This document shows, piece by piece, positions 9,406-47,670 of a stretch of DNA of 49,223 bases (positions within the stretch are counted from its first letter, which is position 1; the number at the start of each line of letters is the position of its first letter). Location of the stretch: positions 1-49,223 of the forward strand of contig CAISWQ010000049.1 in the NCBI GenBank assembly GCA_903889245.1, written 5' to 3'. This stretch comes from an uncultured Lentisphaerota bacterium (GTDB taxonomy: Bacteria > Verrucomicrobiota > Kiritimatiellia > CAIQIC01). The notes under the pieces are model-generated. The model saw only the letters and a list, made by a program, of their open reading frames with translations. It did not search any database and was not told where the DNA came from. The position numbers were made by a program, and so were the translations under genes.

Positions 9406-9417
9406 GCTCTGCGCCCC

Positions 9418-12453: not shown

Positions 12454-12461
12454 GAGCATCC

Positions 12462-16972: not shown

Positions 16973-17007
16973 AGCGGGCCTGAAAAGAATTAGACGATGG
17001 AGAAGAT

Positions 17008-17805
17008 ATGAAAAAAATCATTCCTGCCCTGACGATAGCCGGCCTGATGCTGACGGGCGCGTTCGCGACTGAAGGCGGCGCGAAGCTGCCGCCGAAGGAG
17101 AAGTTCCATCTCTACTTGCTGATTGGCCAGTCCAACATGGCCGGACGCGGCAAGCTCACGTACGCCGAGGCGGTTTCGACGGACCGCATCCTGAAATTTT
17201 CCAAGGAGAACGCGTGGACGCCGGCCACGGAGCCGCTGCACTTCGATAAGTCGGTGGCGGGCGCGGGTATCGGCATGAGCTTCGCCCGCGTGATGGCGGA
17301 CGCCGCGCCGGATGTGACGGTGGGCCTGATTCCCTGCGCCGTCGGCGGCACACCGCTGGACCGCTGGGGCAAAGGCGGCGACCTCTATAAGCAGGCGGTG
17401 GTGCGCGCCAAGCTCGCGATGAAGGACGGCACCTTGAAGGGCATCCTCTGGCACCAGGGCGAGTCCGACGCCGGCAGCGAGGAGAAAGCGCGCAGCTATG
17501 GCGAGCGTCTGGCGAAGATGGTCGCCAGTCTGCGCGCCGAACTGGGCGCGGGCGAGGCGCCCTTCGTCGCCGGCAAGCTGGGCGAATTCCTGAAGCGCGC
17601 GGACAAGTCCGGCAAACCGAGTTGCTGGCCGGTGGTCAATGAGCAGATCGGCGCGCTGCCGCAGCGCGTCGCCCGCGCCGCCGCGGTCGAGTCCACAGGC
17701 CTGAAGGACAAAGGCGACGGCGTCCACTTCGATACGCCGGCGCTGCGCGAATTCGGCAAACGTTACGCCGCCGCCATGCAGCAACTGCAAAAGGGGAAGC
17801 CATGA
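17008..17805 (+). CDS. Sialate O-acetylesterase / CE6-like carbohydrate esterase, secreted
   Basis: 265 residues; GGAGA precedes ATG 17008. A Sec signal (about 1-20) leads to the SGNH-type block LLIGQSNMAGRG with nucleophile S42, then IPCAVGGTPLDRW, ILWHQGESDAG (H149, E152) and a C-terminal DGVHFD with D237/H240. This is the SASA/DUF303 fold of CE6 acetylxylan esterases. It probably removes acetyl groups from xylan or other acetylated glycans, which would help the GH10 enzyme coded at 41270. Overlaps the SDR by 4 bp. Confidence 0.82.
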   Translation: MKKIIPALTIAGLMLTGAFATEGGAKLPPKEKFHLYLLIGQSNMAGRGKLTYAEAVSTDRILKFSKENAWTPATEPLHFDKSVAGAGIGMSFARVMADAAPDVTVGLIPCAVGGTPLDRWGKGGDLYKQAVVRAKLAMKDGTLKGILWHQGESDAGSEEKARSYGERLAKMVASLRAELGAGEAPFVAGKLGEFLKRADKSGKPSCWPVVNEQIGALPQRVARAAAVESTGLKDKGDGVHFDTPALREFGKRYAAAMQQLQKGKP

Positions 17806-18572
17806 ACACCGCCAAAGGTTTTGATCTGACCGGCCGTACCGCGTTGGTGACCGGCTCCTCGCGCGGCATCGGGCGCGCGATTGCGCTCGGTCTCGCCGAA
17901 CAGGGCGCGGTCATCGCCCTGCACGGCACGAAGGCGGGTAAGGCGCTCGACGAAGCACTCGCCGCGGCGCAGAAGCTCGCGCCCAAGAGCGTCGCCGTGA
18001 TCGGCGACCTCGCCAGCGGCGCCGCCGCGCAGAAAATTGTCACCGACGCCATCACCGCGCTGGGCCAGCTCGATATCCTCGTGGCCAACGCCTCGGTCCA
18101 GATCCGCAAGCCGTGGGCCGCGGTGACGCAGGCCGAGGCCGAGCACCAGATGCAGGTGAATTTCCACTCCACGCTGCGGATGATCCACGCCGCCGCGCCC
18201 GGCATGCAGCAGCGCCAGTGGGGCCGCATCCTGACCATCGGTAGCGTGCAACAGGTCCGCCCCCACCCGGACATGATCATCTACGCCGCCAGCAAATCGG
18301 CGCAGGAGAACATGGTCCGCAACCTCGCCAAGCAGCTCGGCCCCGACGGTATCACGGTCAACAACCTCGCGCCCGGCGTCATCCTGACCGACCGCAACGC
18401 CGACGCGCTCGCCGACGAGGCGTACGCCGAGCGTGTCCGCCAGGTGATTCCGCTGCGCACGTTCGGCGAGGCGGGCGATTGTGTCGGCGCGGCGCTGCTG
18501 CTCTGCTCCGACGCCGGCCGTTATATCACCGGTGTGGACCTGCTCGTGGATGGCGGCATGGGGCTGCGATGA
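17802..18572 (+). CDS. Short-chain dehydrogenase/reductase
   Basis: 256 residues, cytoplasmic. Classical SDR: TGSSRGIG (17-24), NAS at 96-98, catalytic S148, Y161 and K165 (YAASK), ending in a GVDLLVDGG motif. R21 after the second Ser suggests NADP(H) preference, but this is weak. Translationally coupled on both sides (ATGA at 17802 and 18569). Sugar or sugar-acid oxidation/reduction is likely; the substrate is unknown. Confidence 0.85.
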   Translation: MNTAKGFDLTGRTALVTGSSRGIGRAIALGLAEQGAVIALHGTKAGKALDEALAAAQKLAPKSVAVIGDLASGAAAQKIVTDAITALGQLDILVANASVQIRKPWAAVTQAEAEHQMQVNFHSTLRMIHAAAPGMQQRQWGRILTIGSVQQVRPHPDMIIYAASKSAQENMVRNLAKQLGPDGITVNNLAPGVILTDRNADALADEAYAERVRQVIPLRTFGEAGDCVGAALLLCSDAGRYITGVDLLVDGGMGLR

Positions 18573-19846
18573 AAGCACCGCTGGTCATCAGCTTGCTCGT
18601 CAGTTTGTTCCCGCTGGCCACGGTGCTGGCGGCGGACGAAACTCCGCGCACGACGCAGCAGGCCGTGGAGCAGGCGCACGCGGAAACCTGGAGCAAGCGC
18701 ATTGACCGGCACGGGATCATGCTCGACTACGTCGGCGAATTGCCCACACCCGAAGACTGCGCGCTCGGGCGGCCAAATGCGATTGGCTGGTGGAGCCCGA
18801 TCGAGAACGGGCCGATGTTCACCGGCCTGTATCTGCCGGCGATGTGCGAGCGCGCCCGGCGCAGCGGCAGCGCCGGGGACAAGGCCAACGCGCGCCGGCT
18901 CGCGGAGGGCCTCGTGAAGTGCGCCTCGGTTTCCGATGTGCCCGGCATGATCGTACGGGGTCTGGGCACGGACGACCGCTGCCATTATCCGCTCGGCTCC
19001 GACGACCAGACGCATCCGTGGTTCCTCGGCCTGCACGCCTACTGCATGAGCGGCCTGCCCTCCGAAGCGGAGCGCGCGCTCATCGTGCAGAAGATGCAAG
19101 AGGTCGCCACCGTGCTGGAGTCCACCGGCTGGAAATGTCCCTGCGACGGTGCGTTCAAGAAAGAGTTTCGCGGTGGCTTCCAGGGCCATCTGTTCCGCGA
19201 CGCCGTCCGCTATCTCCACATGCTCCGCATCATGGCCGAGGTGACGGGTGATAACGTCTGGCTCGAACGTTACCGGAGGGCCGCCGCCGAGCGGCCGGCC
19301 AAGAGCGAAAAAACGCGCGCCGCAATCTGCGCCGCCGGCTATGACCTCGACCGCGAGGCGATCAAGGGCCTCACCGAGTACCAGCAATGGATCTACGTCG
19401 GCTCGCAGGCCGCGCTGGCGCGCCTCGCCACGCTGGAAACCGACGCCACCCTCCGCGCGCGCTATCGCGCCGGCCTGGCCGCCAACACGCGGCAGTCCCT
19501 CGCCGCCATCGAGGCCAGCCGTGAGTTCGACAACAACGACACGAAAGTTTTCGGCAACTCCCACTGGCGGGAGGTCTACACGACGTGGTTCCCGCAAACG
19601 ACGCAGGCCGAAGCCAAGCGCCTCTCGGAGACCGGCGACAAGGTGAAGCGCGGCGAGCGGAAGCATTACGAATCCCGCTATATGAGAAATCCGCTCGCGG
19701 CGGCGGCCATCGTCGCGCTTGCCGGCGACGGCACCGGCCGCGACGCCATCGAGCGCGCGCTGCGCCACTACGACTATTCGAAGCTCAAGATGTCGGAATT
19801 TTTCTTTGCCGAATGCGCCTACTACGCGCTGCCAGCTAAACCATGA
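18569..19846 (+). CDS. Uncharacterised secreted protein, paralogue of the protein at 30749
   Basis: 425 residues from ATG 18569 (ATGA overlap), Sec signal to about residue 21. I cannot assign a family. It shares motifs in order with the 463-residue product at 30749: GWWSPIENG followed by GLYL, RGLGTDDRCH (RGLATDGRSH in the partner), DQTHPWFLGL (DQTFPWFYGL), GWKCPCD (GWKMPCD) and a C-terminal FFFAECAYYAL (FFMAECVFEQL). The alpha-helical pattern with aromatic and acidic motifs resembles (alpha/alpha)6-barrel glycosidases or lyases. Neighbouring esterase, beta-helix and SDR genes support a role in glycan processing. Function unknown. Confidence 0.8.
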   Translation: MKAPLVISLLVSLFPLATVLAADETPRTTQQAVEQAHAETWSKRIDRHGIMLDYVGELPTPEDCALGRPNAIGWWSPIENGPMFTGLYLPAMCERARRSGSAGDKANARRLAEGLVKCASVSDVPGMIVRGLGTDDRCHYPLGSDDQTHPWFLGLHAYCMSGLPSEAERALIVQKMQEVATVLESTGWKCPCDGAFKKEFRGGFQGHLFRDAVRYLHMLRIMAEVTGDNVWLERYRRAAAERPAKSEKTRAAICAAGYDLDREAIKGLTEYQQWIYVGSQAALARLATLETDATLRARYRAGLAANTRQSLAAIEASREFDNNDTKVFGNSHWREVYTTWFPQTTQAEAKRLSETGDKVKRGERKHYESRYMRNPLAAAAIVALAGDGTGRDAIERALRHYDYSKLKMSEFFFAECAYYALPAKP

Positions 19847-28671: not shown

Positions 28672-28686
28672 ATATGAAACAACCAG

Positions 28687-28890
28687 TTCCAAGGATTGGA
28701 AACGCGGCGCATGGTTTTTTCCAAGCATTGGAAAAAGGCGGGTGGAGCGTGACCTCCGGGCACGCTTTGAACGCGCCCGGAGGTCGCGTTCCACCTGTTT
28801 CGCTGCGCTTTTTCCCAAGGCTTGGAAAAATTCCGACATTTTTTTCCAAGGCTTGGGAAAACGGCGGTCGATTTTTCCAAGGCTTGGAAA
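28687..28890. repeat. Palindrome array D (5 units, inverted orientation) with an inserted hairpin
   Basis: Cores centred at 28694 (CCAAGGATTGG), 28726 (CCAAGCATTGG), 28820, 28851 and 28882 (all CCAAGGCTTGG); steps 32, 94, 31, 31. The long step (three periods) holds a separate inverted repeat: 28741-28761 pairs with 28775-28795, with only two non-Watson-Crick positions, both G-U in RNA. Reversed, the order ends CCAATGCTTGG, CCAATCCTTGG, like array A. The array starts right after the SDR stop and ends 9 bp before the GTG proposed for the next gene. Confidence 0.93.
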
Positions 28891-28895
28891 CGGCG

Positions 28896-30719
28896 GTGAG
28901 CGTCTGGCTGGTGGCCGCGTTTTTTTCCACGGCGGTGTGCGGCGCAACGGTTTTTGTCAGTCCGCAGGGCGATGATGCGGCGGCGGGGACGGCGGCGGCG
29001 CCGGTGCGTACGCTGCCGCGCGCGCAGGAGCTGGCGCGCGGTCTGGTCCGGGACATGCGCGGCGACGTGGTGGTCAGCCTCGCGCCGGGCGCGTACCGGC
29101 TGACGCGGACGCTGGCGTTCACCGAGGCGGACTCCGGCCGCCACGGCGGCCGCGTCATCTGGCGCAGTGCCGCGGGGCCGGGGCAGGCGCGGCTGCTGGG
29201 CAGCCAGGTGCTGACCGGCTGGCAGCCGCATCGCGACGGCCTCTGGAAAATCGCGCTGCCGCCAAAGACGGTCTGCCACACGCTCTATGAAAACGGCCGG
29301 CGCGTACACAAGGCGCGGTTCCCCAACTACGAATGTGAGGCTGATTTTCCGACGGCGCTCGGCCGCTATCTGGTCTCGGTAAGTGGCACATCGAAACGCA
29401 CCGACACAAAGTTGGAGCGGCCCAAGGGTCCGAGCTGGCTTGCGTTCCGGCCGGAGGAGGCACCGCCGGTGACCACGGTGACGAAGATGAAGATCCAGCT
29501 TTATCCCGGCGGCAAATGCGACTGGTCGCGGGAGATTCATCCCATCGCCGCGGTGGAGGTCCAGAGCAACCGGCTGGTGCTGGCCGATACGCCGGTGTTC
29601 GGCATCGGCGCGGGCGCGCGGTACTTTCTGGAGGACGAGCTTGGTTTCCTGGATGCGCCCGGCGAATTTTTTCTGGATGAGCCGGCGCACACGCTCTACT
29701 ACAAACCGGTGGGGCAGGGGCATCCCGACCAACTGGGCATCGCCTATCCGTGCATCAGCCGCATGATCCAGATGCAGGGCCGGTCGCGCACGCAATGCGT
29801 GGAGAACATCGTGCTGGACGGGCTCGCGCTGGAGGAGACGGACGATGCGCCGCCGCGCCCGATCTGGGCCTATGAGGGGCTGCACGATGGCGCGCTGGTC
29901 TGGCTGCATAACGCGGCGCGCGTCGAGGTCCGCAATTGTCACCTCAAGAACGGCGGCCGCAGCGGCGTCATGCTGATCGGCCACAACGTGGGCCATCTCG
30001 TCAGCGGTTGCTGGATCGAGCACATGGGGCTCAACGGGGTCAGCCTGTGCAACAAGTTCTCGACGCCCGACAAGCAGGGGCCCACGCTTGATCGCTGCGA
30101 GAGCAACCGCGTCCACAACACGCGCATCTCCCACGTGGGCGAACTGCACACCTACGCCGAGTGCGTGACGGTGTTCAACGTCAGCCACAACGAGGTGGAC
30201 CACTGCCAGCTCGACAACTCGGTGCGCTACGCGATCACGCTGCGCGGCAACACGGGGGCGCAATATGGCCCGCCGGTCTGGACGCCGCATCCGCCGACGC
30301 GGGGAAATTATTTCCACCACATCCGCGTGGAGCGGTGCGGGCAGGATGGCGGCGACATGGGCGCGCTGCATTGCGCGAACCTGAACAATCCCGGCGGCGG
30401 CAGCACCAACACCTTCGAGCAGATCACCGTGGCCGATACCCGCGCGGTGGCCTCGGTGAAGGACTGGCCGCCGGACGGCATCTTCCTCGACTGGCCGCGG
30501 ATGTCCATGGACCAGACCTTCCGCCACGTGCAGATTGTCCGCGCGCAAGGGACGCCCGTGCGCAGCAACAAGCCGGAGAACCTGGCGTCGGCCCGCCTCG
30601 AAAACGTGAGCTGGCAGCCCGGCTTCCGCGCGGACCTGATGGACTACGCAAACATCGGCCTGACGAAGGAATTTCCCGCCGAGTTCGGCGGGCGCCCGGC
30701 GTCGCGCGGTGCGCCGTGA
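28896..30719 (+). CDS. Secreted right-handed beta-helix protein, GH141-like
   Basis: 607 residues from GTG 28896, chosen because it begins a good signal peptide (SVWLVAAFFSTAVCGA) right before the mature FVSPQGDD. An in-frame ATG at 28674 would add 74 residues translated from the palindrome array (FFQALEK, FFPRLGK, FFSKAWE, FFQGLE), which I think unlikely. The start of the mature protein, APVRTLPRAQELARG and LYENGRRVHKARFPN resemble GH141 and allied beta-helix hydrolases (alpha-L-fucosidase or xylanase activities known). Helix coils follow to the end. First gene of a five-gene operon. Confidence 0.75.
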   Translation: MSVWLVAAFFSTAVCGATVFVSPQGDDAAAGTAAAPVRTLPRAQELARGLVRDMRGDVVVSLAPGAYRLTRTLAFTEADSGRHGGRVIWRSAAGPGQARLLGSQVLTGWQPHRDGLWKIALPPKTVCHTLYENGRRVHKARFPNYECEADFPTALGRYLVSVSGTSKRTDTKLERPKGPSWLAFRPEEAPPVTTVTKMKIQLYPGGKCDWSREIHPIAAVEVQSNRLVLADTPVFGIGAGARYFLEDELGFLDAPGEFFLDEPAHTLYYKPVGQGHPDQLGIAYPCISRMIQMQGRSRTQCVENIVLDGLALEETDDAPPRPIWAYEGLHDGALVWLHNAARVEVRNCHLKNGGRSGVMLIGHNVGHLVSGCWIEHMGLNGVSLCNKFSTPDKQGPTLDRCESNRVHNTRISHVGELHTYAECVTVFNVSHNEVDHCQLDNSVRYAITLRGNTGAQYGPPVWTPHPPTRGNYFHHIRVERCGQDGGDMGALHCANLNNPGGGSTNTFEQITVADTRAVASVKDWPPDGIFLDWPRMSMDQTFRHVQIVRAQGTPVRSNKPENLASARLENVSWQPGFRADLMDYANIGLTKEFPAEFGGRPASRGAP

Positions 30720-30748
30720 CACGAAACGATGCAACCGGCACGTGACTG

Positions 30749-32140
30749 ATGATGAAAAATTATTCCCTCAACCGGCGCAGTTTCATGAAGGTGAGTCTGG
30801 CCGCGGCCGGCGGTGCGTTGAGTGGTCGGCCAGCCCGTGGCGCTGACGCTGTGGCCGCGGCTGTCGAGCAGGCCCATGCCGAGCTCTGGCGGCGTTTCAT
30901 CAACCAGCACGGCCAGTTCCTCGATTACACCGCCCTGGATGGGCAGGTGTTGTTGCCCACGCCGGAGGAGTGTCAGGCGGACCAGCCGAATACGCTCGGC
31001 TGGTGGTCGCCGATCGAGAACGGCGCGTTCTTCGGCGGGCTTTATCTCGATGCGCTCTGCAAGCGCTGGCGGGCCGCGCCGGGCTCTGCGGCGGCGGCGG
31101 AGGCGCGCAAGGTGGCCGGCGGATTGCTCAAGCTGGCGGAGGTCGGCGAGACGCCGGGCTTTGTCGCGCGTGGGCTGGCGACGGATGGACGCAGCCATTG
31201 GGTCGCCAGTTCCAGCGACCAGACGTTCCCGTGGTTCTACGGGCTCTGGCGCTATGCCACGAGCGGTCTGCCGGAGGCCGCCGAGCGGCAGCAGGTGGCG
31301 GCCACGCTCGAACGGGTGGCGCTCGGTCTGGAGGCGAACGGCTGGAAGATGCCGTGCGACCGGAAGGGCTTCGGCCACTTCGGCGACTGGGCCGGCGGCT
31401 TTGCCGGCACGCGCGGGACGCTGGCGGGCGCAGAGCCGCAATTCGATGCTGCCGTGCGGCTGCTGTTTGTCCTGCGCGCACTGCATCAGCTCACGGGCCA
31501 GCCGCGCTGGCTGGCGGCCTACCGCGCGAAGCTGGCCGAGGCCCCGCGCGGTTCGACCAAAACCCGCCTCCAGGTTTGCGCCGGTGGCGTGAGCTATGTC
31601 GCGCCCGGCGAGCCGCCGCGCTACCCCGAAAGCCCGCCCATCTGGACCTCCGCCAGCTCGCAGGGCGGCCTGAAGGCGCTGGCGGAGATGGAGAGCGAGG
31701 CGTCCGTACGCGAGCAGTTCCAGCTTGGCTTGGCGGCGAACGCGGCCAGCGCCGCGCGGTTCGTCGTGAACCACAAACGCTATGACAATGCGAATACGGC
31801 GGCCTTCGACATCAACTGGCGCGAGCTCAAGACCGCCTGGAAACCGCAGGCGGAGATTGGCGAGGCCGTCAAACTGGCCACGCTGCAATACCGGGCTTGG
31901 AACAAGCAGTCGCCGCGGCGGTTGCTGGAGGCCGACCAGATGCGCGACCCGCTGTTCGCCGCGTGGATCGTGACGCTGGCGGATCACGTCCCGATCAGCG
32001 CCGCCAGCCGCGCCGACATCCAGGCGGCGCTGACGCATTTCCGCTATGAGCGCTTGCACACCGCGTTGTTCTTCATGGCCGAGTGCGTGTTTGAACAACT
32101 GCGCGCCACGCAAAAGGTTTTCGGAAGGGAAGCAACATGA
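30749..32140 (+). CDS. Uncharacterised Tat-exported protein, paralogue of the protein at 18569
   Basis: 463 residues from ATG 30749 (or 30752), with a twin-arginine leader NRRSFMKVSLAAAGGAL. Family unknown to me. Conserved with the 18569 product: AVEQAHAELW, LPTPEEC, LGWWSPIENG, RGLATDGRSH, DQTFPWFYGL, ATSGLPEAAER and FFMAECVFEQL. The two differ in export route (Tat here, Sec there) and in the middle third. Repeated helical segments with W/D/E-rich loops suggest an alpha/alpha toroid, a common scaffold for unsaturated uronyl hydrolases and lyases. It overlaps the GH99-like gene by 4 bp, so it probably acts in the same degradation step. Confidence 0.8.
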   Translation: MMKNYSLNRRSFMKVSLAAAGGALSGRPARGADAVAAAVEQAHAELWRRFINQHGQFLDYTALDGQVLLPTPEECQADQPNTLGWWSPIENGAFFGGLYLDALCKRWRAAPGSAAAAEARKVAGGLLKLAEVGETPGFVARGLATDGRSHWVASSSDQTFPWFYGLWRYATSGLPEAAERQQVAATLERVALGLEANGWKMPCDRKGFGHFGDWAGGFAGTRGTLAGAEPQFDAAVRLLFVLRALHQLTGQPRWLAAYRAKLAEAPRGSTKTRLQVCAGGVSYVAPGEPPRYPESPPIWTSASSQGGLKALAEMESEASVREQFQLGLAANAASAARFVVNHKRYDNANTAAFDINWRELKTAWKPQAEIGEAVKLATLQYRAWNKQSPRRLLEADQMRDPLFAAWIVTLADHVPISAASRADIQAALTHFRYERLHTALFFMAECVFEQLRATQKVFGREAT

Positions 32141-33264
32141 GCACACGACAAACGATCAACAACCTGCTGGTGATGGCGGGCGTACTGCTGCTGGCTGGTG
32201 GCGGAGGGACTGCGGCGGCGCAAGAAGCCAGGCCATGCGTGAAGCTCGGCGCATACTACTTCGCCGGCTGGGCGGGCAAGAGCGCGTTCGACGATGGCAT
32301 GCCGGAGAACGCGTGGGCCAAGGGCATGCCGACCCATTACACCAAGAAACTCGCCACCGAGTTCGCGGGCCGCAGGCCGCTCTGGGGCTGGCGTGACGAC
32401 ACGCGCGAGTTGATGGAACGGCAGATTGACCTCGCGGCGGATCACGGCGTCGCCTACTTCTCGTTCTGCTGGTACTGGCACGACAACAAGGGGCCGCTCA
32501 ACCTCACCGCCGTTGACGCGGACCCGAAGCACGTGCCGATGCAGCTCTTCATGCAGGCGCGGAACAACCAGCGGATGGAATTCTGCCTGCTGGTGGCGAA
32601 CCACGGCGGCTATGAAATCACCGGGCTCGCGGCGTGGAAACAGGCGGCCGATTATTGGATCGGACTGTTCAAGCATCCGCGTTATCTGCGCATCGATGGC
32701 AAACCGCTGCTGACGATTTTCTCGCCGCGTGGCGCGAACAAGGAAGGCCTCGCCTATTTGCAGGAAGCCGCGCGCAAGGCGGGCTTCCCCGGCGTCGCGG
32801 TCGCCTGCTGCGGCAGCGGCACGCCGGCCGAGGGCTACGCCCTCAAGACGCACTACAACGTGACGCCACCGGGGACCTGGGGCAGCAAGCAGTCGGTGGG
32901 TTATCCCTACCAGAAATTGGTCGAGGCCAACCTCAAGGCGTGGCAGGGCACGGCCGAGCAGCCGTATATTCCGGTGGTCACGCAGGGCTGGGACCGCCGC
33001 CCGTGGGAAGGACTCGGCGGGCTGGGCCCGAAAGGCTCGACGGTCTCGTGGTATTACGAGAAGGGCACGCCTGAGGCGTTTGGCGGGATGCTGACGAAGA
33101 TGGTCCAGTGGATGGACGCACATCCGGCGCAGGTGACCAAGGACCGGCTGGCGCTCATCTACGCGTGGAACGAAATCGGCGAGGGCGGCTGGCTCGTGCC
33201 GTGCAAGGAGGATCCTGACGGGGCCTACCTGAAGGCGATCCGCCGCGTCGTGTTCGGAAAGTGA
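32137..33264 (+). CDS. GH99-like / WbsX-domain protein, secreted
   Basis: 375 residues; ATG 32137 overlaps the upstream stop and follows GGAAGGGAAG. Sec signal (LLVMAGVLLLAGGGGTAAAQ), then a single TIM-barrel-like domain with the WbsX/GH99-like marks: LGAYYFAGW, WRDDTRELMERQIDLAADHG, YFSFCWYWHDNKG, YLRIDGKPLLTIFSP, and a C-terminal LIYAWNEIGEGGWLVPC carrying an acidic pair. GH99 proper is endo-alpha-mannosidase/mannanase; WbsX proteins are mostly uncharacterised. A glycosidase role in this operon is likely; specificity is open. Confidence 0.8.
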   Translation: MSTRQTINNLLVMAGVLLLAGGGGTAAAQEARPCVKLGAYYFAGWAGKSAFDDGMPENAWAKGMPTHYTKKLATEFAGRRPLWGWRDDTRELMERQIDLAADHGVAYFSFCWYWHDNKGPLNLTAVDADPKHVPMQLFMQARNNQRMEFCLLVANHGGYEITGLAAWKQAADYWIGLFKHPRYLRIDGKPLLTIFSPRGANKEGLAYLQEAARKAGFPGVAVACCGSGTPAEGYALKTHYNVTPPGTWGSKQSVGYPYQKLVEANLKAWQGTAEQPYIPVVTQGWDRRPWEGLGGLGPKGSTVSWYYEKGTPEAFGGMLTKMVQWMDAHPAQVTKDRLALIYAWNEIGEGGWLVPCKEDPDGAYLKAIRRVVFGK

Positions 33265-33271
33265 GCTTGCC

Positions 33272-35521
33272 ATGAAGAAACTCATCATGAGGTTGGTGGC
33301 GGTCACTTGCGCTGCCGCGTACGCCGCGGACGTGGTGACGCTGGAGAACCGCGTACTGCGGTTGGAGATCGGCAACAAGCCGGCAGCTTACATCGCGCGG
33401 TTGACCCACAAGGCGAGTGGCGTGGCGGTGATCGCCGCGCCGGCGCATAAAAACCTTTTCTCCCTCACGCTGGCGAAGGCCGATGGCAACACCGTGACGC
33501 TGGAGAGCAGCCAGGCGGGTGAGTCGGTGGTGCGTCAGGACAGTGACAAGCTCACGCTGGAGTTCGGAAAATTCCCGGGCGCCGAGGTGAAGGCTGTGGC
33601 CACCGTGACCTGCGCCGCGGATGGGACGCAGTCGTTCTGGTCGCTGCGCGTGGAGAACAAGACTGGGCTGCCACTCAAGGTCGTCCGCTTCCCGCAATTC
33701 CTCGCCGTGCCGGCGCTGGGCGAGGCCGGGGACGACGTGCTGGTGCTGCCCGCCTATGCCGGGACGCTGATCGAGAACCCGGCGGCGAACTGGAAGAACG
33801 GGCAGAGCATGACGTTGAAATATCCCGGCGATCTCTCGGCGCAATTTCTCGCCTACCAGGATCGGACAGCGGGCGTCTATCTGGCGGGCTCCGACACGCT
33901 GGCCCACCCGATGTCGCTGACGGTCTTCAAGCAGCCGGATGGTTACCGCTGCTGGCATGAGTTCATCGTCGTTGATCGGGCCGCGATCTGGCAGAGCCCG
34001 TATCCGGTTGTGCTGGGCGTGACGCAGGGCCGTTGGTGCGACACGGCCGATCAGTATAAGCGCTGGGCCGAGCGGCAAAGCTGGTGCGCCAAAAAACTGG
34101 TCGAACGAGCGGACATCCCCGCGTGGTGGAAGGCCGGCCCCGCGGTGCATGTCGCTTGCGTCCGCACCTATGACGGCAGCCGCACCTGCAATGGTTCCTA
34201 TTATCCGAAGCTGCGCGAACACCAGCGCACCTTCCGCGACAAGATCGCAGGCCCGGTGGTCGCAATGCTCGCCGGCTGGGAGAATCACCGGCGCTGGACC
34301 GGCGGCGATTACTTCCCTGTCTTCGATGCGGAGCACGCGCAGCCGGTGATCGCCGGCTTGAAGCAGGACGGCATCCGGCCCTTTTTCTTCCTTTCGGGTC
34401 TCTACTACACCTTCCGCAACGAGGGCCGCGATGGCGGCGAAATCCCTGCCGCGCAAAAGCACAAGGCCAGCTACGTCATTGACCCAAAGACCGGCCAACC
34501 GAAGGAATATGTCCTGAACGAATCCAATCCGCAGGGCGACTGGAAGCGCCACTCCTACGCCTTCTGCGTCGGCGCGCCGGAGACGGAGAAGTTTTTCTGC
34601 GCGGTGCTTGATCAGGCGCACGCGCTCGGCGTGGACGTGCTGCAAATGGACCAGACCACCGGCGGCGCGGGCGACGCCTGCTCCTCGGCGGCGCATGGTC
34701 ACGTGTCCGGGGTGGGGCTCTATCAGAGCCACGCGTTTTGGAAGTTGCTCGACGCGCTGCGTGCGCATGGCAAGCAACGCGTGCCGGACTTCGTCCTGTT
34801 CCACGAGGAGCCGCACGAGCAGTTGATTCCGCACCTCGATGGCTTCCATGTGCGCGAATACTATGAGAAGCGCTGGTATCGCGGCGCGCCGGGTGCGGTG
34901 GGCCTCCCGCTGTTCGACTACCTCTATCACGAGTATGCGCCCGGCTATGGCGGTGACAGCGCCGGCTTGAGCAAGGACAACAACCGCTGGCACGTCCGCT
35001 GTCACGCACTGAACTTCCTCACCGGCCGCACGCCGGGCGCGTCGGTGTGGTCGGCGCAGCAGAGCATGTTCGAGGCGCACGCCGACCAGCTCGCCATGCT
35101 GCGCAATCACAGCCGGCTGCTCCAGACGCGCGCCAAGGATTGCCTGATGCTGGGCCAGATGCTGCATCCGTTTGAGTTGGAGACGCCCCTGCTGACCACC
35201 ACCGTCCCCGCGCAGCGCGGCGGCAAGTGGGTACGCGAGCAAATCCAGACGCCGGCCATCCTCACCAGCTCGTGGCAGGCGCCTGATGGCCGGATCGGCC
35301 ATCTGTTCATCAATTTTGCCGAGACCCGCCAGCCGTTGAAGGTGCGCCTCGATACGCGCAACGCGCCCGCCTTCAAAACCTGCACCGCCGAAATCCATCG
35401 CTCGACCACCAGCGCCGGTTTCCAGCCGCTGTGGTCCGGCGTCACGCTGCCGAAGGAATTTGCGACCGAGCTTGAACCGACGGCAGCGATCTTCATCGAA
35501 CTGCGCGAGGACAAACCATGA
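33272..35521 (+). CDS. DUF6259-type TIM-barrel protein, secreted
   Basis: 749 residues, Sec signal ending near CAAAYAAD. Residues ~19-270 form a beta-sandwich (VVTLENRVLRLEIGNKPA), followed by a TIM barrel with IPAWWKAGPAVHVACVRTY, AGWENHRRW, FFFLSGLYYT, GVDVLQMDQTTGG (D460) and LFHEEPHE (E512, E513), then a C-terminal beta domain. The architecture matches DUF6259-like proteins related to alpha-galactosidase/GH101-type barrels. The Asp and Glu pair are candidate catalytic acids. No activity known to me. Overlaps the GH13 gene by 4 bp, so the two are probably made together. Confidence 0.72.
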   Translation: MKKLIMRLVAVTCAAAYAADVVTLENRVLRLEIGNKPAAYIARLTHKASGVAVIAAPAHKNLFSLTLAKADGNTVTLESSQAGESVVRQDSDKLTLEFGKFPGAEVKAVATVTCAADGTQSFWSLRVENKTGLPLKVVRFPQFLAVPALGEAGDDVLVLPAYAGTLIENPAANWKNGQSMTLKYPGDLSAQFLAYQDRTAGVYLAGSDTLAHPMSLTVFKQPDGYRCWHEFIVVDRAAIWQSPYPVVLGVTQGRWCDTADQYKRWAERQSWCAKKLVERADIPAWWKAGPAVHVACVRTYDGSRTCNGSYYPKLREHQRTFRDKIAGPVVAMLAGWENHRRWTGGDYFPVFDAEHAQPVIAGLKQDGIRPFFFLSGLYYTFRNEGRDGGEIPAAQKHKASYVIDPKTGQPKEYVLNESNPQGDWKRHSYAFCVGAPETEKFFCAVLDQAHALGVDVLQMDQTTGGAGDACSSAAHGHVSGVGLYQSHAFWKLLDALRAHGKQRVPDFVLFHEEPHEQLIPHLDGFHVREYYEKRWYRGAPGAVGLPLFDYLYHEYAPGYGGDSAGLSKDNNRWHVRCHALNFLTGRTPGASVWSAQQSMFEAHADQLAMLRNHSRLLQTRAKDCLMLGQMLHPFELETPLLTTTVPAQRGGKWVREQIQTPAILTSSWQAPDGRIGHLFINFAETRQPLKVRLDTRNAPAFKTCTAEIHRSTTSAGFQPLWSGVTLPKEFATELEPTAAIFIELREDKP

Positions 35522-36918
35522 AAACCAAGCTGCTCAACCTCCTGTGCGTTGTCGCCCTTGGGTCGGCCGCAATTCACGCTGCCGATGCTAAACAGAACCT
35601 TGCTGCGCAAACGGCGCGGCCCTCGCCGGAGTGGATGACGCGCGGCGTGCTGTACCAAATCTGGCTGCGCGGCTTCACGCCGGAGGGCACGCTCAAGGCG
35701 GCGACCGCGCGCCTGCCGCAGGTCGCCGACCTCGGCGCGAACATCATCTACCTCTGTCCCGTGCAGCTCGCCGATGACGACCTGCGCCCGGAGTTCTGGA
35801 GCAAGCGCCAGAAGGAATCGCACACGAACAACCCGCGGAATCCCTACCGCATCAAGGACTACAACCGGATTGATCCTGAATACGGGACCGAGGCCGACCT
35901 GCGCGAGTTCATCGCCACCGCGCACAAGCTCGGGATGCGCGTGCTGCTCGACCTCGTCTATTTCCACTGCGGGCCGACCGCCGTCCTGATGGACAAGCCC
36001 GGCTGGATTCAGCGCGACGCGGCGGGTCAGGCGGTCACCGGCGGCTGGAATTTCCCGCGCCTGAACTTCAAGTGCGCGGCGCTGCGCGAATATCTCTGGG
36101 CGAACATGGAGCACTGGGTGAAGGACTTCGACGCCGACGGCTTCCGCTGCGACGTCTCCGACGCCGTGCCGCTCGATTTCTGGGAGGAGGCGCGCACGCG
36201 GCTCGAAAAAATCCGCCCCGACCTCGTCATCCTGGCCGAGGGCCAGCGCAAGGAAGACCAGCTCAAAGCCTTTGATCTCAACTACAGTTTCACATGGCTT
36301 TCCGCGGTGCAGTCCGTGTTCACCAAGGGCCAGCCGGCCTCGTCGCTGCGCGCGCTCTGGCAGAAGCTGCACGATGAGCGCCCGCGTGGCGCGCGCTTCA
36401 TCCGCTATACCGAAAACCACGACATCGTCAACGACCTGCTGCGCGCCGAGGTCGTCATGGGCGAGCGCGGTGCGGCGGCGCTGACCGCCATCCACTTCAC
36501 GCTTGATGGCGTCCCGCTGCTCTACAACGGGCAGGAAATCGGCGACACCTCGCACCAGAGCATCTACGCCCGCTGGCCGGTCCGTTGGGAGGCCGCGTGC
36601 CTGCCAAAGGCGCAGGCCAAATTTGCGGTCCACCAAAAACTCTGCCAGTTGCGGCGGACCGAGCCCGCGCTCGCCGCCGGCGAGGTGGTGTGGCTCGATA
36701 ACGATCAAACCGAGGCTGTTCTCTCCTTCGCCCGCCGTACAGGCGGCGCGGAGGTTGTGACCATCGCCAGCCTCTCGAACCGCAAGGTCAAGGTGCGGGT
36801 GAAGCTGCCCGCCAGGCTGACGCCGTTGCTATCCTCCGGCGCTACGCTCGCGCCGGTCGGCGAGCCGCGTGAACTTACCCTTGAACCCTGCGGTTATTTC
36901 ATCGGACGGGCCCCCTGA
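35518..36918 (+). CDS. GH13 alpha-amylase-family enzyme, secreted
   Basis: 466 residues; ATGA overlap with the gene before and GAGGA ahead. Sec signal (about 1-22). The catalytic domain starts at RGVLYQIWLRGFTPEGT, with region I VLLDLVYFHCGP (His of the usual DxxxxH kept as H150), region II DGFRCDVSD (nucleophile D212), region III VILAEGQ (acid/base E241) and region IV FIRYTENHD (H301, D302). All GH13 catalytic residues are present. At 466 residues it is short but has the C-terminal beta domain (~390-466). Acts on alpha-glucans or another alpha-glucoside; specificity is not readable. Confidence 0.85.
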   Translation: MKTKLLNLLCVVALGSAAIHAADAKQNLAAQTARPSPEWMTRGVLYQIWLRGFTPEGTLKAATARLPQVADLGANIIYLCPVQLADDDLRPEFWSKRQKESHTNNPRNPYRIKDYNRIDPEYGTEADLREFIATAHKLGMRVLLDLVYFHCGPTAVLMDKPGWIQRDAAGQAVTGGWNFPRLNFKCAALREYLWANMEHWVKDFDADGFRCDVSDAVPLDFWEEARTRLEKIRPDLVILAEGQRKEDQLKAFDLNYSFTWLSAVQSVFTKGQPASSLRALWQKLHDERPRGARFIRYTENHDIVNDLLRAEVVMGERGAAALTAIHFTLDGVPLLYNGQEIGDTSHQSIYARWPVRWEAACLPKAQAKFAVHQKLCQLRRTEPALAAGEVVWLDNDQTEAVLSFARRTGGAEVVTIASLSNRKVKVRVKLPARLTPLLSSGATLAPVGEPRELTLEPCGYFIGRAP

Positions 36919-36974: not shown

Positions 36975-37024
36975 GTTTCCAAGGCTTGGAAAAATAGCGC
37001 GCAACTTTTCCAAGCCCTGGAAAA
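36975..37024. repeat. Palindrome array E (2 units)
   Basis: Cores CCAAGGCTTGG (centre 36984) and CCAAGCCCTGG (centre 37015), step 31. Lies 100 bp (last centre) ahead of the second Gfo/Idh gene. The rest of the gap to 37114 shows only an AAAGGAA ribosome-binding stretch. Confidence 0.93.
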
Positions 37025-37114: not shown

Positions 37115-38488
37115 ATGAAAAACAACCCGACCGGCCGCCGCTTCTCCCGCCGTGACTTTCTCCGCTCGTCCGCCGCGCTCGGCGCGGTGGCGTGGGGGCT
37201 GCCCACCCTTGTGCCGTCGTCGGTATTCGGCCAGAACGCGCCGAGCAAGCGCATCACGCTCGGCATCATCGGCTGCGGCAACCAGAGCACGGTGGACATC
37301 CCCGAATTCCTCAAGAACGATGACTGCCAGATCGTCACCGTCTGCGACGTCAACCGCGCCGGGCGCGGCTACAAGAGCGCCGACCAGTTCCTCGGCCGCG
37401 AGCCGGTACGCGACATGGTGAACAAGTTTTACGCGAAGAAAACCGGACAGGACTCCTACAAGGGTTGCGACATGTGCGCCGACTTCCGCGAGGTCCTCGC
37501 GCGCAAGGATGTGGATGCCGTCGTCATCATCACACCCGACCACTGGCACGCGATCATGACGATCATGGCCGCGGAGGCGGGCAAGGACATCTACTGCCAG
37601 AAGCCGCTCGGCCTGACCGTGCGCGACGGGCAGGAGATGATCAAGGCCGTCCGCAAGCACAACCGCATCCTCCAATGCGGCAGCCAGTGGCGCTCGACGA
37701 AGCACATCCGCGAGGCGTGCGAGCTGGTCCGCAACGGGCGGCTGGGCAAGCTGAAGAAGATCGAGAGTTATGTCGCGGCGAACAATGCCACCGGCCCCGG
37801 CCCTGGCTGGAAGCCAGACCCCGTGCCGGAAGGTTTCGACTACGACCTGTGGCTCGGCCCCGCGCCGCAGGCGCCCTATCACAAGGACCGTTGCTTCTAC
37901 CGCTTCCGTTTCGTCCGCGACTACTCCGGCGGCCAGACGACGAATTTCGGCCATCACGCCAACGGCGTCGTCCGCTGGGGCCTCGGCGATGATCTCTTCC
38001 CGACCGAGTTCGAGGACGCGGGCTCCGAGTGGCCGGAGAAGGGCGACCTGTTCACGACGGCGACGAAGGTCGCGTTCCGCGCGCGGTTCCCGGATGGCGT
38101 CGAGTTGTTCTGCCATACGGACAAGAAGAGCTTCGGCGTCCGCTTCGAGGGCACCGAGGGCTGGCTGGAACTCGGCTCGAAGAAATTCGAGACCGGCCCG
38201 GCGAGCATCAAGGGTTCCGCCATCGGCGCCAGCGATCAGCGGCTCTACGTGAGCCCGAACCATTACCGCAACTTCCTCGATGCGGTGAAGGCGCGGAAGG
38301 ACGGCGTCGAGCCGGTCGAGACCGGTCACCGCACCTCGATGCTCTGCCACCTCGGCAACATCGCGATGCTGCTCAAGCGCAAGCTCAAGTTCGACCCGCA
38401 GACGGAAAAAATCATCGGCGACGACGAGGCCGCCGCGCTGCTCGAGGTCCCGCTGCGCGCGCCGTGGAGCTACACGACCAAGGCCTGA
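37115..38488 (+). CDS. Gfo/Idh/MocA family oxidoreductase, Tat-exported (second copy type)
   Basis: 457 residues with a strong Tat leader (FSRRDFLRSSAALGAVAWG). Rossmann loop IIGCGNQS, later IITPDHWHA, then YCQKPLGLT: the usual E of the EKP motif is Q here, a swap also seen in many PVC members. CGSQWRST and GGQTTNFGHHANGV come from the substrate domain. NAD(P)-dependent redox or redox-assisted glycosidase chemistry in the periplasm is the family expectation. Not a close duplicate of the 8035 gene. Monocistronic: array E before it, and a convergent gene after it. Confidence 0.85.
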   Translation: MKNNPTGRRFSRRDFLRSSAALGAVAWGLPTLVPSSVFGQNAPSKRITLGIIGCGNQSTVDIPEFLKNDDCQIVTVCDVNRAGRGYKSADQFLGREPVRDMVNKFYAKKTGQDSYKGCDMCADFREVLARKDVDAVVIITPDHWHAIMTIMAAEAGKDIYCQKPLGLTVRDGQEMIKAVRKHNRILQCGSQWRSTKHIREACELVRNGRLGKLKKIESYVAANNATGPGPGWKPDPVPEGFDYDLWLGPAPQAPYHKDRCFYRFRFVRDYSGGQTTNFGHHANGVVRWGLGDDLFPTEFEDAGSEWPEKGDLFTTATKVAFRARFPDGVELFCHTDKKSFGVRFEGTEGWLELGSKKFETGPASIKGSAIGASDQRLYVSPNHYRNFLDAVKARKDGVEPVETGHRTSMLCHLGNIAMLLKRKLKFDPQTEKIIGDDEAAALLEVPLRAPWSYTTKA

Positions 38489-41269: not shown

Positions 41270-42610
41270 ATGAACATGAAGTCTGCCGTGGTGTTGATGT
41301 CCGGGGTATGCCTGACCGTGTCGGCCGCCCCGCCGGAGGTCTATACCAAGCTCTGGCGCGACGAGAAACTGAACGCGCACATCGAGCGCAACATCGAGCA
41401 GTATCGCAAAGGCGACGTGGCGATCACGGTCGTGGACGCCGCGGGCCAGCCGGTCAGCGGCGCGAAAATTTCCGTGCAGCAGACCGGCCACGAATTTCTC
41501 TTCGGCTGCAACGCGTTCGTGCTCGGCCAGCTCCAACCCGCCGAGGCCGGGCAGCGTTACGAGGCCGCGTTCACCAAGCTGTTCAACTTCGCCACCGTCC
41601 CGTTCTACTGGGAGGGCACCGAGCCGGAGCAGAATGAACTGCGCTACATGGAAAAGGGCTCGCGCGACATCTGGCGCCGTCCGCCGCCGGAGCGCTTCCT
41701 GCCGTGGGCCGCCAAAAACAATATCACGCTCAAGGGCCACCCGCTGCTCTGGCACGCCTATAACCCGAAGTGGCTGCCCAAGGACGCCGACGCGCTGCGC
41801 GCCCTCTACCAGAAGCGCTTCAAGGAAATCACCAGCCGGTTCGGCGACAAGCTCGGCGTCGTGGACATCGTCAACGAGTCACTTGTCTGCCCCAAGACCT
41901 ACCCGCTCTACACGCCCGACCACGACTATGTCCGCTGGGCGTTCCAGGAGGCCGTGCCGCAGTTCGCCGCCGGCACGATCACGATGATCAACGAGGTCAC
42001 TTCCTATAACTTCAAGCCCTACGAGAGCAATCCCTACGTCGCGCAGATCAGGAAGCTGCTCGAGCAGGGCGCACAGGTCCGCGGCATCGGCCTGCAATAT
42101 CACTTCTTCCGGCGCAAGGCGCTCGACGCCTACCTCGCCAGCGCGCAGAGCGACCCGCACAAGCTGCTCGACCTCTACGAAAAGTTCAGCGAGTTCAAGC
42201 TGCCGCTCTACATCACCGAGATCACCATCGCCTCCGCCGGCGAGGGCGGGGCGGAGTTGCAAGCCGAGGTTGTGCGCGACCACTACCGCCTCTGGTTCGC
42301 CGCGCCGAACATGGCCGGCATCACGTGGTGGAACCTCGGCGATGGCACCGCCGTCAAGGGCGAGAACGAAGCGATGGGCGGCCTGCTCGACGCCGATTTC
42401 AACCCCAAGCCTGCCTACGCCGCGCTCGACCAGCTCATCAACCGCGACTGGACGACGCAGGCCACGCTCACCACCGATGCGCAGGGCCGCGCCCAGCTCC
42501 GCGGTTTCCACGGCACCTATCGCGTCACCCTCGAGCAAGGCGGCAAGACGAAGCAGCAGACGCTGCCGCTGAAGAAGGCCGGCGGCAACACCTGGACCCT
42601 CACGCTCTGA
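41270..42610 (+). CDS. GH10 endo-1,4-beta-xylanase, secreted
   Basis: 446 residues; AGGAG precedes ATG 41270. Sec signal (about 1-20), then a beta-sandwich (~45-95, DVAITVVDAAGQPVSGAKIS, CBM-like) leading into the barrel. KGHPLLWH, DIVNES (acid/base E203), LQYHFF and PLYITEITI (nucleophile E317) with GITWWNLGDG are the GH10 set. A C-terminal ~50-residue beta tail (from ~395) may be an extra sheet. Cleaves the backbone of xylan; acetyl-esterase genes elsewhere in the window would help it. Starts 18 bp after the sulfatase. Confidence 0.88.
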   Translation: MNMKSAVVLMSGVCLTVSAAPPEVYTKLWRDEKLNAHIERNIEQYRKGDVAITVVDAAGQPVSGAKISVQQTGHEFLFGCNAFVLGQLQPAEAGQRYEAAFTKLFNFATVPFYWEGTEPEQNELRYMEKGSRDIWRRPPPERFLPWAAKNNITLKGHPLLWHAYNPKWLPKDADALRALYQKRFKEITSRFGDKLGVVDIVNESLVCPKTYPLYTPDHDYVRWAFQEAVPQFAAGTITMINEVTSYNFKPYESNPYVAQIRKLLEQGAQVRGIGLQYHFFRRKALDAYLASAQSDPHKLLDLYEKFSEFKLPLYITEITIASAGEGGAELQAEVVRDHYRLWFAAPNMAGITWWNLGDGTAVKGENEAMGGLLDADFNPKPAYAALDQLINRDWTTQATLTTDAQGRAQLRGFHGTYRVTLEQGGKTKQQTLPLKKAGGNTWTLTL

Positions 42611-42652: not shown

Positions 42653-42732
42653 TTCCAAGCCTTGGAAAAGTTGGCGTGAAATTTTCCAAGGCTTGGAAAA
42701 AGTGATGGCGCTGATTTCCAAGCTCTGGAAAC
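42653..42732. repeat. Palindrome array G (3 units)
   Basis: Cores centred at 42660 (CCAAGCCTTGG), 42691 (CCAAGGCTTGG) and 42723 (CCAAGCTCTGG); steps 31 and 32. The last core is 35 bp from the ATG of the FAD oxidoreductase. TGGAAACAT after the last core is shared with array I, which suggests the forward orientation. Confidence 0.93.
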
Positions 42733-44282: not shown

Positions 44283-46148
44283 ATGAAACGACTGCTCGCC
44301 CTCTTGTGCCTCGTCCCGCTGCTGGCCGCGGCGGCGCCGGAAAAGTTCCAGCACTTCATCACGCGCGACGGCGCGCGGCTGATGGAGGGCAACAAGGAGT
44401 TCCGCTTCATCGGCGCGAACATGCCGGGGCTGGTGCTGCCCTACGACTGGACGCTGTTCCTGCCGGAACGGCTGCGCCTGCCGACCCCGTGGGAGCAGGA
44501 GGATGGTTTCCGCACGCTCGACCAGATGAACCTGCGCGTCGTGCGCACGTGGAACCTGCCGATGCGCGGCGCGAAGGCGGACGCCCAACCCTGGCACTAC
44601 GTCACCGGCCCCGGCGAGTTCAACGAGGCGGCATTCCGGTGCGTGGATAGCCTGCTCGCGCTGGCGAACAAGTACGGCGTGCGCGTGATTCTCCCGCTGA
44701 CGGCGGAGTCGGGCGACTACCTCGGCGGCATCGGCACCTACGCCTCGTATCGCGGCAAAAAGCGCGCGGAGTTCTGGACCGATCCGCAGCTCAAGGAGGA
44801 TTACAAGGCGACCGTGCGCCACGTGCTCACACGCGTCAACACCCTCACCGGCGTGCGCTATTGCGATGACAAGGCGATCCTCGCGTGGCAGTTCGGCAAC
44901 GAGATGGACAGCGCGCCCGATGCGTGGCTTGCCGAGATGGCGGCGTTCATGAAGAGCCTCGACAAAAATCACCTCGTCTCCGAGACGCGCCACGTCCCCG
45001 GCCGGGCGAAGATGTTCACCGGCCAGAATATTGATCTTGTGACGCGCCACCTCTACGGCAACTACAAGGGCGTCGGCAGCGGCTGGCCGGCGGCCATCAC
45101 CAAGGAACTGGCGACGCTCAAGGAACCGCGGCCGCTCTACATCGGCGAGTTCGGCCCCTACATTGATGGCAAGGATTTGACGCACGACAACGTCGTCGCC
45201 AAGCTGCGCGACTTCCTCGACTATGTGTGCGCCGAGAAGACGATCTGCGGCGCGCTGATCTGGAGCATGTACTTCCATCACCAGGAGGGCGGCTTCTACT
45301 GGCACCAGATCATGACCTATCCCGCGGTCTGGTCCTATCACTGGCCCGGCTTCCCGAGCGCCGACGCGCAGCGCGAGAGCGAGCTGATGGCCACAATGCG
45401 CGCGGCCGCGTTCAAGATTCAGGGGCTGTCCGTGCCGCCGGTGCCCGTGCCCATCGCGCCGGAGCTGCTGCCGTTCAAGGATGTGCCGCTGTTCTCGTGG
45501 CGCGGCTCCGCCGGTGCGACCGGCTACGACATCGAGCGCGCGCCCGCCGCCGCCGGGCCGTGGCAGGTGCTCGCCGCCAACGTCTGCGATGGCGACGTGG
45601 CCTATCGCCCACTCTTCAGCGACGCGACCGCGCACGCCGGCGAGACGTGGTTCTACCGCGTCACCGCGCGTAGCGCCTCGGGCGCGTCACCGCCCTCGAA
45701 CGTCGTCGGCCCGGTCGCCGTCAAGCGCGTCTGCCTGGTGGATGAGCTCCAGGATTTCTCGCGCTGCCGCGCGAAGTCCGCCGGCCTGAAGCTGAACAAC
45801 GACTACAACGCGCTCTATGCCGAGTTCCTGTTCCGCGCCAAGGGCAGCACCAACGACTGGATCGAGTACGAGGCGCCCGCGCCGATCGAGCGCGTGCGGA
45901 TTGTGGCCTTCCATGCCAAGCAGCCGGTGGACCTGGTCTGCGCCACGTCGGCCGATGGCGCGACGTTCACCCCGCTGGCCGTGGAGCGACAGGCGCGCGT
46001 GCTGCCGAAGATTTCCGGCGGCGCGGCCAGCGGCCAGAACCGGACGCTGCTCGAATACACCCTGACGCCGCCGCCCGGCCAGAAACGCCTGCGCCTCACC
46101 TGGCCCGGCCCCGCCGAACTCGACCGCGTAGAAATTTTCCATCCGTGA
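44283..46148 (+). CDS. GH5-like (mannanase-type) glycosidase with Fn3 and beta-sandwich domains, secreted
   Basis: 621 residues; CGGAGA precedes ATG 44283. Sec signal (1-18). TIM barrel ~20-380: FRFIGANMPGL, AWQFGNEMDS (acid/base E207), TRHLYGN (H256) and LYIGEFG (nucleophile E289), all usual for GH5 endo-beta-mannanases. Residues ~405-485 form a fibronectin-III-like module (GATGYDIERA, TWFYRVTARSASGASPPSN). The last ~130 are a beta-sandwich (NDWIEYEAPAPIERVRI, LRLTWPGPAEL) like a carbohydrate-binding domain. Probably cleaves beta-mannan or a related beta-glycan. Followed 12 bp later by an esterase. Confidence 0.82.
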   Translation: MKRLLALLCLVPLLAAAAPEKFQHFITRDGARLMEGNKEFRFIGANMPGLVLPYDWTLFLPERLRLPTPWEQEDGFRTLDQMNLRVVRTWNLPMRGAKADAQPWHYVTGPGEFNEAAFRCVDSLLALANKYGVRVILPLTAESGDYLGGIGTYASYRGKKRAEFWTDPQLKEDYKATVRHVLTRVNTLTGVRYCDDKAILAWQFGNEMDSAPDAWLAEMAAFMKSLDKNHLVSETRHVPGRAKMFTGQNIDLVTRHLYGNYKGVGSGWPAAITKELATLKEPRPLYIGEFGPYIDGKDLTHDNVVAKLRDFLDYVCAEKTICGALIWSMYFHHQEGGFYWHQIMTYPAVWSYHWPGFPSADAQRESELMATMRAAAFKIQGLSVPPVPVPIAPELLPFKDVPLFSWRGSAGATGYDIERAPAAAGPWQVLAANVCDGDVAYRPLFSDATAHAGETWFYRVTARSASGASPPSNVVGPVAVKRVCLVDELQDFSRCRAKSAGLKLNNDYNALYAEFLFRAKGSTNDWIEYEAPAPIERVRIVAFHAKQPVDLVCATSADGATFTPLAVERQARVLPKISGGAASGQNRTLLEYTLTPPPGQKRLRLTWPGPAELDRVEIFHP

Positions 46149-47470: not shown

Positions 47471-47670
47471 GTAGCCGCACTCGTGAGAGTGCGGCGCGCT
47501 AAACTCAAGCCCAACTTCAGCTTGCCGGGAGGCTCGCCCTCCCACAGCAGATTAAGCGAGCGGGAGGGCCGAGCGTACTCGCGAGCCGCTTTCCAAGCCT
47601 TGGAAAAGGAACTGTCAATTTTTTCCAATCCTTGGAAAAATACGCCCGTGAACTTTCCAATGCCTGGAAA
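47471..47670. repeat. Duplicated leader block and palindrome array I (3 units)
   Basis: GTA plus hairpin GCCGCACTC/GAGTGCGGC (47474-47495), then 64 bp at 47551-47614 that recur exactly at 49160-49223. Array cores are centred at 47598 (CCAAGCCTTGG), 47630 (CCAATCCTTGG) and 47662 (CCAATGCCTGG), steps 32 and 32. The last core is 33 bp before the FAD-oxidoreductase ATG, with CAGGAGC between them. Confidence 0.92.

Follow-up and report, generated by a model that had tools for sequence, protein, structure and literature searches.

The subject of this analysis is a set of five genes in contig C49 of an uncultured Kiritimatiellota/Lentisphaerae-like bacterium, whose genome consists of 5.26 Mb in 125 contigs; the entire 49,223-bp contig is referred to as the window. 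We propose, with a probability of roughly 60%, that the five genes make up a cassette for exported glycan-trimming enzymes, tightly packed and probably transcribed together, which has been seen so far only in its own species and lies inside a large, rearranging degradation locus of the hexuronate/hemicellulose type. The anatomy of the cassette, the family matches, the model-predicted folds and the fact that the gene order is not conserved in the genomes searched are observations; co-transcription, export, the substrates and any joint function are inferred.

The + strand carries five open reading frames across positions 28896-36918 (Table 1), with successive gaps of 29, −4, 7 and −4 bp, so the original prediction described five tightly joined same-strand genes correctly, and its naming of the families was also roughly right, according to Pfam, profile and fold evidence. 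It called the enzymes mostly uncharacterised, a description that can now be narrowed, gene 2 being the only one with no family match at all. The proteins look like exported glycan enzymes, export signals having been judged by eye and with a 10-residue hydropathy window rather than with a signal-peptide predictor. The statement that all five have such signals calls for caution in two cases: the N-terminus of gene 2 is twin-arginine-like, with TAT scores under the Pfam and NCBIfam cut-offs, and that of gene 1, if translation begins at GTG 28896, is hydrophobic but lacks a basic n-region.

Tight spacing is not exceptional here, since 18 of the 31 same-strand neighbours in the window are separated by 35 bp or less and there are two other five-gene runs with gaps of at most 50 bp (8035-13532 and 13899-19846). 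Short intergenic distance was rejected as decisive evidence for this reason. A scan for promoters and terminators was uninformative (2 promoter-like sites vs 0.9 expected, 6 terminator-like sites vs 8.9 expected), and the overall GC content of the cassette resembles that of the remaining window.

Table 1. Position and assignment of the cassette genes, their neighbours and other features of the window.
Feature	Position	Strand	Description
Gene 1	28896..30719	+	Beta-helix, GH141-like; 607 aa from GTG 28896, start uncertain
Gene 2	30749..32140	+	(alpha/alpha)6-barrel, unnamed family, Tat-like start
Gene 3	32137..33264	+	WbsX-family, GH99-like; motif WNEIGEGG (E346, E349)
Gene 4	33272..35521	+	DUF6259; GH129-like fold (predicted)
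Gene 5	35518..36918	+	GH13 alpha-amylase-type enzyme
Gfo/Idh/MocA oxidoreductase	37115..38488	+	PF19051 and PF01408 over cut-off
GH10 protein	41270..42610	+	PF00331, 96.6 bits (cut-off 22.1)
Second gene 2 family member	18569..19846	+	43% identical to gene 2
Three 15-bp palindromes	28687, 28719, 28875 (28687..28889)		Between the short-chain dehydrogenase/reductase (SDR) gene and gene 1, up to the gene 1 start
Two 15-bp palindromes	36977..37022		Downstream of gene 5, ahead of the Gfo/Idh/MocA gene

The five proteins were searched for in 28 draft genomes of the order, including that of the bacterium itself, and four of them, genes 1, 3, 4 and 5, across the phylum (288 genomes), where the E-value limits were strict, between 1e-60 and 1e-100. 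Alignments covering less than 25-30% of the query were excluded from the neighbourhood comparisons. Among the matches listed for the order, close orthologs are found in two congeners only (69-82% identity), and the third congener, G003, has no close ortholog. In congener G005, gene 1 is on contig C200 (73%), gene 2 on C214 (70%), and genes 3, 4 and 5 are all on C26 (81, 75 and 82%), at 28.5, 39.0 and 85.0 kb, that is 9 and 44 kb apart. In congener G004, genes 1, 3, 4 and 5 are on four contigs (74, 76, 69 and 80%) and the relatives of gene 2 reach 45% identity at most. In the phylum, gene 1 is matched in 4 genomes, gene 3 in 7, gene 4 in 3 and gene 5 in 24, the bacterium itself and G004 being counted; outside the genus, several cassette orthologs occur together in G120 (genes 3, 4 and 5), G231 and G273 (genes 1 and 5 in both), always on different contigs. 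The available part of PMC5615132 contains no such five-gene cassette.

Close orthologs were in no case found side by side, either among the matches listed for the five proteins in the order or, for the four proteins, in the regions examined in the phylum. The retention of neighbour pairs was counted in the fetched regions, with orthologs defined by at least 60% identity and at least 50% coverage, a procedure that favours linkage of the control pairs: none of the four testable cassette pairs is kept in G005 and neither of two in G004; of the control window pairs lying within 2.6 kb, 9 of 13 are kept in G005 and 3 of 8 in G004. The orthologs of the cassette genes have different neighbours in the congeners. 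A conserved five-gene module was rejected because the orthologs are dispersed in this way. The original prediction regarded the genes as one dedicated set and proposed to look for conserved co-occurrence; within the matches listed for these draft genomes the gene order is found nowhere else, a result that the prediction itself had counted as refuting, and gene 5 has conserved partners of its own, so conservation does not support this idea.

Gene 5 matches PF00128 with 102 bits (cut-off 22) and its closest PDB sequence is 4gkl (E 1.9e-42). The regions DLVYFH (145), GFRCDVSD (208), LAEGQ (239) and TENHD (298), which we take to be the conserved motifs of glycoside hydrolase (GH) family 13, are intact. 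Gene 5 resembles the noncanonical GH13 maltogenic amylase AmyB (4gkl) in its Pfam family, sequence and motifs, and differs from it in that its conserved partners, in the regions examined, are not starch genes but those of a Gfo/Idh/MocA oxidoreductase and a GH10 protein. In both congeners, the gene 5 ortholog is followed by that of the oxidoreductase (gap of 111 bp in G005 and 104 bp in G004) and then by the GH10 ortholog, with one additional gene between in G004. The best NCBIfam match of the oxidoreductase is the model of the glycoside 3-dehydrogenase BT_2158 (120 bits, cut-off 750), a resemblance which hints that 3-keto-glycoside chemistry may take place in the locus. We also note that in G005 the gene 5 ortholog is closely preceded by the gene of an 833-residue protein that matches no Pfam family (L106:12378-14879); in G120 a 69% ortholog of this protein has the same place ahead of gene 5 (L212:7082-9622). 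Part of the 833-residue protein is about 30% like the C-terminal region of the gene 2 fusion found in locus L105.

The locus around the cassette encodes UxaC (PF02614, 435 bits; the NCBIfam equivalog is narrowly missed, 383.4 vs 387), a D-mannonate oxidoreductase (335 vs a cut-off of 281), UxuA, a permease of the major facilitator superfamily (MFS), GH10, GH106 and GH20 proteins, a sulfatase, BD-FAE and SASA esterases, and a PslG-like protein (E 2.5e-6) of the GH39 type. Orthologs of at least 60% identity to 23 of 33 window genes were found in the fetched regions of G005, and 21 of them are on C26, in a different order. This reordered counterpart of about 58 kb has in addition two GH115 genes, a GH39 domain, the gene of an IclR regulator and one whose product matches both DUF1961 and 3-keto-disaccharide hydrolase. 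The window resembles utilisation loci of the glucuronoxylan type in its GH10, PslG-like protein, BD-FAE/SASA esterases, UxaC, UxuA, mannonate oxidoreductase and MFS permease, and the G005 counterpart also in its GH115. It differs from these loci, as from the polysaccharide utilisation loci of Bacteroidota, in that none of its 34 called genes has a Pfam match to SusC or SusD, and its GH106, GH20 and sulfatase genes set it further apart from the glucuronoxylan type. This composition points to a uronic-acid-bearing, hemicellulose-like glycan as the putative target of the locus. For two window proteins without Pfam match (44283-46148 and 15332-16972), the congeners have well-conserved equivalents in their counterpart loci, and relatives of the former are also present in L122, L167 and L188.

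The cassette is flanked by palindromic repeats. A 15-bp palindrome (TTCCAAGGCTTGGAA and variants) is present at 22 places in the window, against 0.08 expected from shuffling, often in arrays with a spacing of 31-32 bp; besides those that border the cassette, examples are found at 7843-7983, 42653-42730 and 47591-47669. All 22 are intergenic as the genes are called, three of them being inside gene 1 if it starts at ATG 28674. One spelling occurs in 427 + 456 exact copies in the genome of the bacterium (the reversed control has 0), and the palindrome is rarer in the regions of the congeners. Two of its spellings were searched for in the literature and found in no paper.

The main rival of our proposal is that the tight spacing reflects gene-dense, one-directional packing, the five genes having been joined by rearrangement and serving different glycans; gene 5 would then be part of the Gfo/GH10 group. 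The abundance of short gaps and the two other five-gene runs of the window agree with this view, as do the different neighbours of the orthologs and the partners that gene 5 keeps in the congeners; the repeats on either side of the run, which are found genome-wide, may have served as recombination points. Such packing without joint function is nevertheless unlikely in our opinion: 4-bp overlaps, which commonly accompany translational coupling, are present at two of the four junctions, and the locus as a whole has been held together on C26 of G005. We consider it more doubtful still that the five genes are one dedicated module whose target is a single glycan, undescribed so far, in which part of the linkages are alpha. 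The tight gaps would suit such a module, and three of the five proteins belong to or resemble alpha-acting families (GH99-like, GH129-like fold and GH13), which agrees with the alpha-linked part that the original prediction had proposed; the single shared target in the same proposal is unsupported, the order was found in no other genome searched, the orthologs are dispersed and gene 5 has other partners.

Several observations weigh against the cassette of trimming enzymes that we favour, and some of them would suit a dedicated module. In L140, from the Verrucomicrobiia metagenome-assembled genome (MAG) SJ186, a relative of gene 2 (46%) is followed by an ortholog of gene 4 (64%); the same MAG has a 71% ortholog of gene 2 on a separate 3.6-kb contig, L117. 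Both congeners share a trio made of a GH141-like gene, a DUF4832 gene and the gene 3 ortholog (L103:14577-19619 and L110:9755-14966), so that GH141-like and GH99-like genes are two places apart there as in the window; the GH141-like member of the trio has no more than about 22% identity with gene 1, and DUF4832 scores under its cut-off. The L140 pair and this trio speak for some functional linkage. Since the genomes are drafts, the location of orthologs on different contigs can hide linkage, and the gene 1 ortholog of G231 is 0.8 kb from a contig end. The mean GC content at third codon positions of the five genes is slightly reduced (0.854 vs 0.884, standard deviation 0.023, for the other + strand genes), which could be a trace of a separate history. 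Last, the GH106, GH20 and sulfatase of the window do not fit a simple glucuronoxylan; they would fit a more complex polymer.

Within the cassette that we propose, the gene 2 family deserves the most interest. Gene 2 passes the cut-off of no family in Pfam or NCBIfam, where its only matches are sub-threshold ones to the Tat signal and to one phage-protein model, and the profile of its family matched none of the PDB sequences up to E 10. Its predicted model (predicted local distance difference test score, pLDDT, 82.4; predicted template modelling score, pTM, 0.86) is a barrel of the (alpha/alpha)6 type. In VIA, this model gives Z 18.1 with YPO2471 (7tem; root-mean-square deviation, rmsd, 3.8, 295 aligned), 17.6 with a cellobiose 2-epimerase and 17.4 with a GH76 mannanase, but also 16.9 with a terpene cyclase. 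Foldseek returned nothing at E ≤0.001. We rejected any function read from these structural matches, because the terpene cyclases score nearly as well and the best Foldseek E-value is 1.3e-3.

A scan of genome contigs detected 217 relatives of gene 2. The family is present in Verrucomicrobiota, Spirosoma, Larkinella, Dyadobacter and Cohnella, and also in MAGs that carry the labels Acidobacteria, Bryobacterales, Gemmatales and Spirochaetes. Neighbourhoods were compared for the best 80 of the 217 relatives, in 79 loci whose 10-kb flanks are incomplete in some cases. The family is often duplicated (two or more copies in 20 of the 79 loci), and homologs of SusC and SusD are both present in 12 of the 79. 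In the Bacteroidota examples checked, SusC and SusD precede the relatives of gene 2, as is seen in Spirosoma and Larkinella; Pfam confirms SusC and SusD directly upstream of a gene 2 family pair in L131, and SusD in L128. Fusions of the gene 2 domain to longer C-terminal regions that match TIM-barrel glycosidases occur in L105 and L115 (both from G005) and in L114 (from the genome under study); one of these matches just passes (PF02449, 22.1, cut-off 21) and the others fall short. In an alignment of 92 family sequences, D146 and D157 are conserved throughout (92 of 92), as is E394 (91 of 91); the sequence surrounding E90 and D157-Q158 formed part of the search patterns, which biases the conservation counts of these residues upwards. 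Gene 2 probably founds a family of carbohydrate-active enzymes without curated Pfam or NCBIfam model, which would be hydrolases, lyases or epimerases with an (alpha/alpha)6 barrel and D146, D157 and E394 as candidate catalytic acids.

Gene 4 belongs to DUF6259 by sequence (PF19773, 113.8 bits, cut-off 28.7), a family for which the genome of the bacterium has eight matches above the cut-off. The AlphaFold2 model (pLDDT 84.0, pTM 0.86) has ZgGH129 (5opq) as its best Foldseek match, with E 4.2e-26. In VIA, it gives Z 24.1 with NagBb (rmsd 3.9, 565 aligned), which we take to be a GH129 enzyme; the top nine rows are all NagBb, ZgGH129 or the galactosaminidase of F. plautii (Z 22.9-24.1), and the GH36 and GH13 rows are at about 20. 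A search of gene 4 against PDB sequences gave nothing below E 0.7 and no GH129 among the matches. Gene 4 thus resembles the GH129 enzymes NagBb and ZgGH129, the latter a 3,6-anhydro-D-galactosidase, in the fold of its model, and differs from GH129 and GH36 in that no sequence similarity to them was found. We conclude that it is predicted to have a GH129-like fold, which is not a proof of function. Residues D460 and E512 of gene 4 are invariant in 14 rows and are candidate catalytic residues. Our literature search found no paper mentioning DUF6259.

Gene 3 passes the cut-off of Glyco_tran_WbsX (PF14307, 75.7 bits, cut-off 25.1). As a single sequence, it matches no PDB chain at E 0.1; the profile of its family matches 5ngw (E 1.4e-5) and 4acy (E 0.0029). 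The catalytic pair of GH99 is ExxE. Residues E346 and E349 of gene 3 are invariant in seven rows and align with the two glutamates of the FNEWHEG motif of the endo-alpha-mannosidase 4acy; the better-scoring 5ngw has no glutamate pair at the aligned place. Gene 3 has PF14307 in common with the GH99 endo-alpha-mannosidases and the WbsX family, and the relationship is distant. No paper that mentions WbsX along with glycoside hydrolases was found in the literature search.

Gene 1 passes PF13229 (30.0 bits, cut-off 25.9). We label it GH141-like, and not a member of GH141, because the Pfam insertion domain GH141_M scores 16.8 bits, under its cut-off of 27. The single sequence matches 9rx2, a 'parallel beta-helix repeat protein' (E 1.6e-15), and BT_1002 (5mqp, E 1.8e-6), and a seven-row profile, paralogs included, matches 5mqp at E 8.6e-78. 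According to the available part of PMC12786026, the catalytic aspartates of BT_1002 are D523 and D564. Both align with aspartates of gene 1, D487 and D532, that are invariant in the seven rows; the aligned aspartates of 5mqp are 41 apart by our hand count, as in that part of the paper. Gene 1 therefore has the beta-helix, the sequence match to BT_1002 and both catalytic aspartates in common with GH141, and it differs by the low score of GH141_M and by the sequence DWP, shared with its two orthologs, in place of the DEG(S) stretch past the second aspartate. No activity can be assigned to it, since the characterised GH141 enzymes differ in activity: the same part of PMC12786026 lists BT_1002 as an alpha-L-fucosidase, Xyn141E as an endo-xylanase and the Wf141 enzymes as endo-fucanases. 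The start of gene 1 is ambiguous. A palindromic repeat stops 6 bp short of GTG 28896, and an in-frame ATG at 28674 would extend the open frame upstream through the repeat array; both congener orthologs have an ATG start and an ordinary-looking signal peptide. In this species the start of gene 1 seems to have been displaced or masked by the array (28674-28900).

If the families are a guide to the steps, all of them outside the cytoplasm, the beta-helix enzyme encoded by gene 1 would cut a bond like those of fucosides or xylan, the GH99-like enzyme (gene 3) would make an endo-alpha cut, the GH129-like DUF6259 enzyme (gene 4) would take off an alpha-linked end sugar, the GH13 enzyme (gene 5) would cleave an alpha-glucan-like link and the gene 2 product would act on some sugar. 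The freed uronates may then enter via the MFS permease and follow the route from UxaC to the mannonate oxidoreductase and UxuA that is encoded nearby.

The case is a caution against inferring a pathway from tight gene spacing in one metagenome genome. It shifts attention away from the five-gene set, towards the GH129-like fold predicted for DUF6259 and the unnamed family of gene 2. Both are leads at the level of families and can be tested directly: DUF6259 may be a group of GH129-like alpha-glycosidases, and the gene 2 family adjoins glycan importers in named strains of Spirosoma and Larkinella.

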